Origin: Nitrosomonadales bacterium
GTDB taxonomy: Bacteria > Pseudomonadota > Gammaproteobacteria > Burkholderiales > Gallionellaceae
DNA length: 47,519 nucleotides
NCBI GenBank assembly: GCA_016195965.1
Contig: JACPYR010000034.1
Coordinates: forward strand, 1 to 47,519
Direction: 5' to 3'
This document shows, in pieces, positions 14,301 to 15,518 of the stretch; the stretch's first letter is position 1; the number at the start of each line of letters is the position of its first letter. The notes under the pieces are model-generated. The model saw nothing but the letters and a program-made list of their open reading frames with translations. It did not search any database and had not been told where the DNA came from. Position numbers and translations under genes: made by a program.

Positions 14301-14506
14301 GGTCAAAACCGCGTAGTCTTTTGTAGACAACTAACCCTAGTTACTGTGGGTCGGCGACAGGATGCAATGAATGTGTATTTCATGCGCGCAGAATCGCATG
14401 TAAATATTTCACGGCTGTTACGGATTTGTTGGGGTTATGTGAATTCGATGGGCTGAATGCCGTGATTACGACAACAGTTGCTCTTCAATTGCAACAGTGC
14501 TTTGTG

Positions 14507-14571
14507 GGAGCGGCTTCAGCCGCGATTGCTGCGGTACTTGCTGGGCGGCTAATCGCGGCTGAAGCCGCTCC
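14507..14571. repeat. REP-like inverted repeat
   Basis: Two perfect 21-bp arms (14507-14527 and 14551-14571) face each other over 23 bp. Each arm is itself a small hairpin (GCGGC-TTCA-GCCGC and GCGGC-TGAA-GCCGC). This is the shape of a REP doublet (BIME). No RAYT transposase gene lies in the window. Confidence 0.8.
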
Positions 14572-14580
14572 TACCTGGAT

Positions 14581-14769
14581 TGGCCGTTTAACCAAAACGA
14601 CCAGTTATATAGTGGCTACGACGTAACCTGAAGGTTAGTCTCCGCCGCTACATAACCGGACGATTATCCAAATCGTCCGGTTATATAGTGGTTTCAACGT
14701 AACGCGCTGCGCGCATTAGTTTCCACCGTTACATCACAGGTAGATTAGCCAAATCTACCTGTGATGTAA
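14581..14769 (-). repeat. Array of three pstB-tail copies, each in its own hairpin
   Basis: Read on the - strand, the codons for Y-I-T-G-R-F-G-stop occur at 14745-14768 (the true pstB end), 14664-14687 and 14588-14611. Codons differ only silently (Thr-Gly-Arg: ACA GGT AGA; ACC GGA CGA; ACT GGT CGT). Each copy sits in a hairpin: 18-bp arms at 14729-14769, 14-bp arms at 14652-14684, and 8-bp arms with one G-T at 14581-14603. The stop codon lies at the loop each time. Spacers share TTACGT, CCAC and ACTAA words and can fold too. Spacing is 81 and 76 bp. This is seen directly; its origin (old integration sites or an RNA-processing array) is inference. Confidence 0.85.
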
Positions 14770-15518
14770 TCTTCGGTCTCTTTGCGCTTGGGGTTGGTGA
14801 AGACGGTGCTGGTTTCGCCGAGTTCGATCAGGTCGCCCAGATACATGTAGGCGGTGTAATCGGAGATGCGCGCGGCCTGCTGCATGTTGTGCGTGACGAT
14901 CACGATCGTGAAGTCTTCTTTCAGTTCGTCGATCAGCTTCTCGATGTGCGCGGTGGAAATTGGGTCGAGCGCGGAGGTGGGTTCGTCCAGCAGCAGCACT
15001 TGTGGTTTGACAGCAATCGCGCGGGCGATGCACAGGCGCTGTTGCTGGCCGCCGGACAGCCCGGTGCCGCTTTGCTTGAGTTTGTCTTTGACCTCCCCCC
15101 ATAGCGCAGCTTTGCGCAACGCCCATTCCACGCGTGCTTCCATGTCATGCTTGCTGAGGTTTTCGTATAGCTTGACGCCGAATGCGATGTTGTCGTAGAT
15201 GGACATCGGGAACGGCGTGGGCTTCTGGAACACCATGCCGATCTTGGCGCGCAGCATGTTCAGGTCCTGTTTGCTGTCCAGGATGTTCGCGCCGTCCAGC
15301 AGGATTTCTCCGGTGGCCTTCTGTTTGGGATAGAGCTGGTACATGCGGTTGAAGGTGCGCAGTAGCGTGGATTTGCCGCAGCCGGACGGGCCGATGAAAG
15401 CGGTCACCATTTTTTCCGCGATGCTCAGGTTGATGTCTTTGAGCGCGCGATAATTGCCGTAATAAAAATTCAGATCTTTGATGATGATCTTCGGGTTGGC
15501 GATTTTTTCGATGTCCAT
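14745..15518 (-). CDS. pstB: Phosphate ABC transporter ATP-binding protein PstB
   Basis: The 257-residue ABC ATPase has Walker [10 protein letters not shown] (43-51), the Q-loop [14 protein letters not shown], signature LSGGQQQR, Walker [13 protein letters not shown], and the family's C-terminal DYITGRFG. It powers the PstCA phosphate channel and, with PhoU, signals phosphate status to PhoR/PhoB. It is the last gene of pstSCAB. Its stop codon lies at the loop of an 18-bp hairpin, and two further copies of its last codons follow downstream (see the repeat array). phoU is not adjacent; it lies about 18 kb away at 33410-34117. Confidence 0.97.

Follow-up and report, generated by a model that had tools for sequence, protein, structure and literature searches.

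Introduction

Integrative elements that enter the 3' end of a gene bring a silently varied tail that replaces the native tail, which is displaced, and such payback of a gene end by the inserting parasite is known for large integrase islands. Elements of the IS200/IS605 type have hairpin ends, insert after a short motif without target duplication, and are excised and inserted as single strands by TnpA. The attC sites of integrons are folded sites with a bulge and an unpaired centre; they occur in arrays and carry the core RYYYAAC/GTTRRRY.

REP sequences and BIMEs are described, in the accessible parts of two sources, as short, imperfect, dispersed palindromes that are non-autonomous and often lie 3' of genes or at coding ends (PMC2817692, PMC3733652). 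Slightly over 10% of the intragenic repeats are placed at the ends of coding regions (PMC3733652), and in four cases a BIME includes the 3' end of a rayt gene, restoration of the gene not being described in the accessible text (PMC2817692). Bacterial MITEs, according to excerpts of the sources, are under 200 bp, have no protein of their own and lie in or beside genes (PMC10969869, PMC2229807), and the Rickettsia palindromic elements are palindromes within protein-coding genes, to which they add a foreign stretch (PMC2229807). Here we describe what appear to be elements inserted in the last codons of many housekeeping genes of iron-oxidising bacteria and some of their relatives.

The end of pstB in the window

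The window, the whole stretch of 47,519 nucleotides that we analysed (Nitrosomonadales bacterium, GCA_016195965.1, contig JACPYR010000034.1), carries on its minus strand, at 14745..15518, the gene of the phosphate ABC transporter ATPase, pstB (TIGR00972, 396.7 bits against a cut-off of 343.2). The gene product ends in Asp-Tyr-Ile-Thr-Gly-Arg-Phe-Gly-stop, and the last codons lie within a hairpin that we call P1. Read along the minus strand, pstB with P1 is followed by a bulged hairpin (R1), a second palindromic tail (P2), another bulged hairpin (R2) and a third tail (P3) that has a short stem only. The codons for Tyr-Ile-Thr-Gly-Arg-Phe-Gly-stop have their left ends at 14745, 14664 and 14588, with spacings of 81 and 76 bp, and we confirmed that the three copies share one orientation and differ only silently, as stated in a preliminary description of the locus.

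P1 (14729..14769, minus strand) is an 18-bp palindrome, recognised by folding and by the arm-exchange test described below, in which the YITGRFG tail of pstB forms the left arm and the loop holds the stop codon. P2 (14648..14688, minus strand) is, by folding and tail comparison, a second palindromic YITGRFG-stop whose differences are all silent, and P3 (14581..14612, minus strand) contains the final YITGRFG-stop copy at 14588-14611 and folds with a 9-bp stem. R1 (14689..14728, minus strand) has a CCA end and reads GGT-GGA-AAC-TAATGCGC..GCGCGTTA-C-GTT-GAA-ACC-A, while R2 (14613..14647, minus strand) is near the dispersed consensus and ends in GTAGCCA; the covariance model scored them at 37.2 bits (E 1.1e-5) and 61.7 bits (E 4.7e-11), both copies being themselves in the alignment of the model. 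The preliminary description had given each tail its own hairpin with the stop at the loop, which holds, and arms of 18, 14 and 8 bp, in place of which folding of the strand gives stems of 18, 18 and 9 bp. It was also right that the spacers can fold, both of them making the common bulged hairpin that we call R. Judged by the GA|MAA rule and by the same-place junctions of empty and filled pairs (below), the insertion point in the window would lie between 14770 and 14769, directly after the GA (14770..14771, minus strand) of the Asp codon preceding Tyr, and P3 would, by analogy, be the displaced native tail of this genome.

The 193-nt stretch of the array folds far better than shuffled sequences (z of -10.4 as DNA and -11.7 as RNA). 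Promoter-like or terminator-like sites were not found in 14350-14850 of the window, and Rfam 15 at the gathering score gave no family in the window or in eight loci. Just past the last tail copy, at 14502-14576, lies an inverted pair of GTAGGAGCGGCTTCAGCCGCGA-type repeats, which we take to be REP-like.

Palindromic tails at pstB in related genomes

Of 121 genomes, 76 had a strong match and supplied the region downstream of pstB; 64 of these belong to the genus of the window (its own genome included) and 12 to its order. Arrays of YITGRFG tails after pstB, which the preliminary description had considered for other genomes, do recur: 24 of the 76 loci have the palindrome with tail copies, 5 have the palindrome only and 47 have neither (29 palindromic loci by hand sorting). 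Three loci with 11-12 of 20 positions paired (G022, G028 and G013) were placed by hand among the empty ones, and G042, counted as empty among the 47, has a decayed element. Neighbouring tail copies in the 24 loci start 73-142 bp apart; the search reached 1.2-1.7 kb, and a larger insert in the five palindrome-only loci would lie beyond it. Downstream of pstB in G013 (L082), a pstB coding fragment is repeated past the gene end without a palindrome.

Among the matches listed, which comprise at least 117 stretches, the matching contigs include some of Gallionella, Sideroxydans, Sideroxyarcus and Ferrigenium. Like structures are found in a Curvibacter and two more Burkholderiaceae records, in Thiobacillus thioparus and in Candidatus Nitricoxidireducens. 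At three Burkholderiaceae loci (L197, L198 and L233) the last tail copy stands directly before the ATG of the next gene, presumably phoU from the gene order. Across 399 genomes spread over the order, an intact copy after CAY was found in 7 genomes, from 6 of 158 genera, which is a lower bound because the pattern misses filled genomes such as G039; those of the 7 that lie outside the genus of the window are again palindromic, imperfectly so in L359.

Comparison of filled and empty loci

The Thiobacillus sample gave a pstB match in 34 of 40 genomes, of which 30 were loaded and 24 loci parsed; two of these loci are filled (L412 and L413), and L417 resembles a decayed one. The filled locus of Thiobacillus thioparus, L413 (G417), is identical to its empty relative L408 (G472) at 292 of 300 upstream positions and has 95 extra bases at pstB. 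The displaced tail of L413 matches the native tail of L408 at 24 of 24 positions, and its tail in use is identical to that native tail at 17 of 24, the 7 differences being all silent. In T. thioparus these seven silent differences rule out that the foreign tail came from a target-site duplication. At three further arrays, in the Gallionella group, the last tail and the sequence downstream of it align without a shift to an empty locus: G052 to G070/G049 (91%, 425 bp), G004 to G046 (84%, 422 bp) and G055 to G002 (70%, 435 bp). The idea that a silently different tail is brought to the pstB end, with the native tail left downstream, had been raised in the preliminary description, and it is borne out by these filled/empty comparisons.

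Codon differences between P1 and the last tail amounted to 100 silent and 19 non-silent in 24 genomes, the five palindrome-only loci being left out; 25% silent would be expected without constraint, and the silent share found is an upper bound because the pattern used to find tails favours YITGRFG and conserved copies. In many pstB tail copies there are between four and seven changes, every one of them silent. Adjacent tails of glmS, dnaJ and nrdA at six loci showed 48 silent and 3 non-silent differences, in a set that was chosen by eye and omits the decayed third nrdA copy of L382, proB and dksA. The two tails of L233 are identical, as plain duplication would likewise leave them, and the argument against a target-site duplication does not extend to that locus.

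For each of the 24 loci the nearest empty relative was chosen on the similarity of the upstream sequence; the tail nearer to that relative was the last one in 10 loci and P1 in 9, and 5 were ties, most empty relatives being too distant to tell which tail is native. In 4 out of 10 three-copy arrays (pstB of G055 and G011, dnaJ of G009/L379 and glmS of G057/L386) copy 1 is almost identical to copy 3 and copy 2 differs, which indicates that the order in an array is not simply newest-first. Such a pattern would follow if a later element inserted at the CCA| end of an existing one, or if one tail converted another.

Pairing of the palindrome arms

In 51 distinct palindromic tails of relatives the left arm, set against the right arm of the same copy, is paired at 15.8 of 18 positions, and exchange of arms within the same set leaves 12.9 +/- 0.2 of 18 paired (maximum 13.5 in 2000 shuffles), the set being selected for at least 11 of 18 pairs and the exchange control having the same selection. 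The arms thus change together, as had been proposed for the window. Seven positions of the coding arm vary freely, and at these we find two to four Watson-Crick pair types. The palindrome, hereafter hairpin 1, appears to be maintained for its structure, with a sequence that obeys the protein code; it is doubly constrained, by the protein code in one arm and by pairing in the other, and its wobble positions therefore covary.

The R hairpin

The part conserved between loci is R and not the pstB core, and R is also present at ten other genes and at intergenic places. The consensus of R, C-GGY-GNA-RRC-TAA...TTA-Y-GYY-GNA-RCC-A, builds two short stems, one bulged base and an internal loop of three by three bases in which G and A are nearly constant. 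Both stem sides show GNA followed by G or A, with N variable, and GTAG, to be compared with the GT(A/G)G head of REP sequences, is one of several forms. In 25 copies, partly from related genomes, 96.4% of the cells are paired and there are 9 double-sided changes, against shuffle means of 93.5% and 1.8. A generic dispersed repeat without a link to pstB, against which the preliminary description had set its own reading, is a fitting account of R but not of the gene-specific tails.

The covariance model gave 16 copies of R in the genome of the window at E 0.1, and 1-14 copies in 44 of the 76 genus genomes at E 0.001. The left half alone reaches 18 occurrences among the matches listed (G039); left halves outnumber whole R because longer forms, which extend to about 160 bases (20 places), hold an extra hairpin. 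We do not favour an autonomous form carrying a gene between the two halves of R, since half-scans of 23 genomes gave, among the matches listed, forms of at most about 160 bases, with the exceptions of L364, which has no recognisable right end, and L378, which has no regex match. A second form, roughly CAGYGAAAC...GCTGARNTA, replaces R in G010, G011, G055, G067, G027, G032 and G053. Intergenic copies of R have a different hairpin 1 (CAACAMGCC..GGCTTGTTG and others).

The loop of the second R copy in L046 holds about 57 extra bases with their own inverted repeats. Between P1 and P2 of L018 (G026), an element is nested in another R at its own GGAGA|C motif. Around 825 of L353 (minus strand), R lies within an apparent tRNA-Phe copy, after which a further copy begins, and in L348 and L351 R is antisense to an open frame, apparently supplying its last codons and stop (..NYVCSFGSD-stop).

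Other genes carrying the element

R stands at the ends of dksA, hisC, proB, dnaJ, nrdA, smpB, glmS, acs and a class I aminotransferase, nine genes named from NCBIfam (the aminotransferase fragment does not reach the cut-off of the model that fits it best). A tenth gene, which we take to be murG, has R at its start, on the opposite strand. In most of the C-terminal cases the gene tail again forms one side of a palindrome, and the stop codon falls at the loop or within the opposite arm; the hisC tails have short stems only. The glmS genes of G005 and G057 have three tails each, all KPRNLAKSVTVE-stop with silent differences only, and dnaJ of G009 has three tails, each KVKDFFAQ-stop. Decayed tail copies are found for proB, for dksA and in the third nrdA tail. 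At the murG start of L340 (G000 C54:40300-43400) the antisense R lies at about 880-1040, and a second murG head, with start codon and first codons, is found upstream; the two heads differ mostly silently by eye. Both glmS arrays, L385 (G005) and L386 (G057), have an integron integrase gene at a distance of about 3.3 kb.

Element ends and insertion site

A sufficient left flank was available for 83 distinct R copies; a stem anchored at R is present in 63 and missing in 20. The bases before hairpin 1 are GA in 45 of these 63 copies, CA in 11 and neither in 7, GA having a background of 6% and preceding 4 of 48 control stems; since some of the copies stem from related genomes, they are not fully independent. 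On the right flank of the 42 copies whose start is unlike the flank, the first base is A or C in all 42, the second is A in 32 and the third in 31. Taken together, the left and right statistics give a motif of about GA|MAA. By inspection, this site splits an Asp/Glu codon before Lys/Asn in dksA, hisC, dnaJ, nrdA, glmS, acs and the aminotransferase, and likewise in most proB copies, the smpB boundary being unclear. pstB departs from the motif, with GA|YTA at Asp-Tyr.

No target-site duplication was seen in the 42 copies: the agreement of start and flank at successive positions (23, 32, 32, 14 and 10) is about the shuffled level (18.9, 30.7, 30.3, 9.9 and 8.1). We do not claim a long guide pairing of the right arm with the target, the agreement beyond three bases being only slightly above shuffled outside gene tails.

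Discussion

Judging from the sequences compared here, the arrays very probably arose by repeated insertions of a miniature non-autonomous mobile element of about 75-140 bases, the hairpin 1 of which doubles as the C-terminal codons of the host gene. The element would consist of two adjoining hairpins, with the stem of hairpin 1 starting at the left cut and the final CCA of R forming the right end. Insertion takes place after GA and before MAA (before YTA in pstB) with no target duplication seen, as the recurrence of the junctions shows. At gene-end targets hairpin 1 encodes the same C-terminus, so that the gene keeps its full-length product and the old tail is pushed downstream, as the filled/empty comparison shows; there the old tail may decay. 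The elements may move as folded single strands by an enzyme acting in trans, in the manner of IS200/IS605, and DNA transfer may spread them between species. Our first guess for the putative mover is a Y1 enzyme of the IS200/IS605 type, because the anatomy resembles that of single-strand movers in its end hairpins, short left motif and absence of duplication. In our analysis we saw no excision product, circle or new insertion, and no enzyme was linked to R.

The preliminary description had entertained a stack of integrase attachment sites, left in tandem by islands that entered and left the pstB end. The restoration of a gene tail by a silent variant is typical of 3'-end integrases and tandem copies do occur at 24 of 76 loci, but the 73-142 bp intervals of these loci hold hairpins only and neither islands nor cargo (copies beyond 1.2-1.7 kb would be missed), R is shared with ten other genes and intergenic spots, and the arms are free at wobble positions, unlike a fixed core site, so that we consider this origin highly improbable. 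Its other suggestion was an RNA 3'-end array, that is, hairpins selected for transcript stability or termination and multiplied by slippage or unequal crossing-over. We give it hardly any weight, despite the very stable RNA folding and the strong hairpins in which most gene-end copies lie: 14350-14850 holds no terminator-like site, a T-run follows none of the 24 P1 hairpins in a crude scan that detects a terminator at just 9 of the 36 empty loci and downstream of the last tail in 6 of 24 loci, 47 of the 76 loci have no palindrome, a foreign tail was cleanly inserted, and one copy lies antisense at the murG start. Homologous recombination alone, spreading an old duplication between species without transposition, predicts the same layout, with a donor tail at the gene and the native tail at the end; arrays with equal copies 1 and 3 could reflect gene conversion, and the identical tails of L233 would fit this reading too. 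It is nonetheless improbable, since the GA|..CCA| unit recurs at unrelated places, including the inside of another R (L018) and a tRNA-Phe-like copy (L353).

A more serious contender, though in our judgement still unlikely, is that R belongs to the REP-type sequences moved by RAYT (Y1) transposases, the gene tails being passengers between cleavage sites. R has the size of a REP and is a bulged palindrome that ends in CCA, as do the tails of CGTC repeats in the accessible text of PMC3733652, which also gives the figure of slightly over 10% for intragenic repeats at coding-region ends; four rayt 3' ends have become part of a BIME according to the accessible part of PMC2817692, and we found a Y1_Tnp match in 63 of the 76 genus genomes. 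Against this, R lies beside none of 30 Y1 loci (flanks up to 1.5 kb, from well over 100 listed matches), and G039, which is assembled as one contig with 99% completeness, gives 14 matches for R and none for Y1 at E 0.001. As for integrons, the attC core pair RYYYAAC/GTTRRRY is found in 0 of 90 R copies. The integron integrase (TIGR02249) is above the cut-off in 19 of 30 genomes and is thus common in the genus; it is absent from the R-rich G039 and from G000 and is present in G001, G008 and G002, these three without an R1 match, and its distribution does not track that of R.

The mobile element proposed here can be set beside each of the described systems. R units have the traits given above for REP/BIME sequences in the accessible parts of the sources (PMC2817692, PMC3733652), being short, imperfect, dispersed and non-autonomous palindromes often found 3' of genes or at coding ends, but they are few per genome, use a GA|MAA-like site, lie beside none of the 30 Y1 genes and supply the end of the very gene that they interrupt, in many genes. 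Like MITEs as excerpted (PMC10969869, PMC2229807), the elements are under 200 bp, without their own protein and in or beside genes; they differ in that no target duplication was seen, the ends are by inspection two different hairpins and the end of the host gene is carried. Both they and the Rickettsia palindromic elements are palindromes in protein-coding genes, but the latter, in the accessible text, add a foreign stretch (PMC2229807), whereas R-elements restore the original C-terminus. As with 3'-end integrative elements, the tail is restored and the native one displaced (T. thioparus and the Gallionella group), but here the insert is about 100 bp, no integrase or cargo was seen and many targets share one R family. 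With IS200/IS605 the R-elements share hairpin ends, a motif and the lack of duplication, but we found no linked TnpA, and the ends and motif differ. R arrays are folded and bulged as attC arrays are, but without the core pair. Each known family that we tested thus fails a defining feature, and we therefore regard the elements as a candidate new kind. That they form a new class is a real possibility that we put forward tentatively: a protein-less, two-hairpin, CCA-ended transposable unit that a putative enzyme would move in folded single-stranded form, as DNA or as an RNA copy. It would live in essential genes because its lineages captured the ends of about ten housekeeping genes, and it would evolve under a double code, with the host protein in one arm and hairpin pairing in the other. 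Until an enzyme is named, a specialist may prefer the label "extreme REP-like element".

Our queries of the open-licence literature, which were partly broad, turned up REPs, MITEs and protein-coding palindromes but no report of mini-elements restoring host gene ends, of gene-end payback by elements under 150 bp or of one family serving many genes; the nearest is the inclusion of rayt 3' ends in BIMEs (PMC2817692). If the reading proposed here is true, the elements would be a record of gene-end exchange between species, would explain the codon-shuffled tail arrays and would point to an unrecognised structure-directed recombination activity. Thiobacillus thioparus DSM 505, a named strain that offers a clean comparison of filled and empty loci, makes the reading testable.
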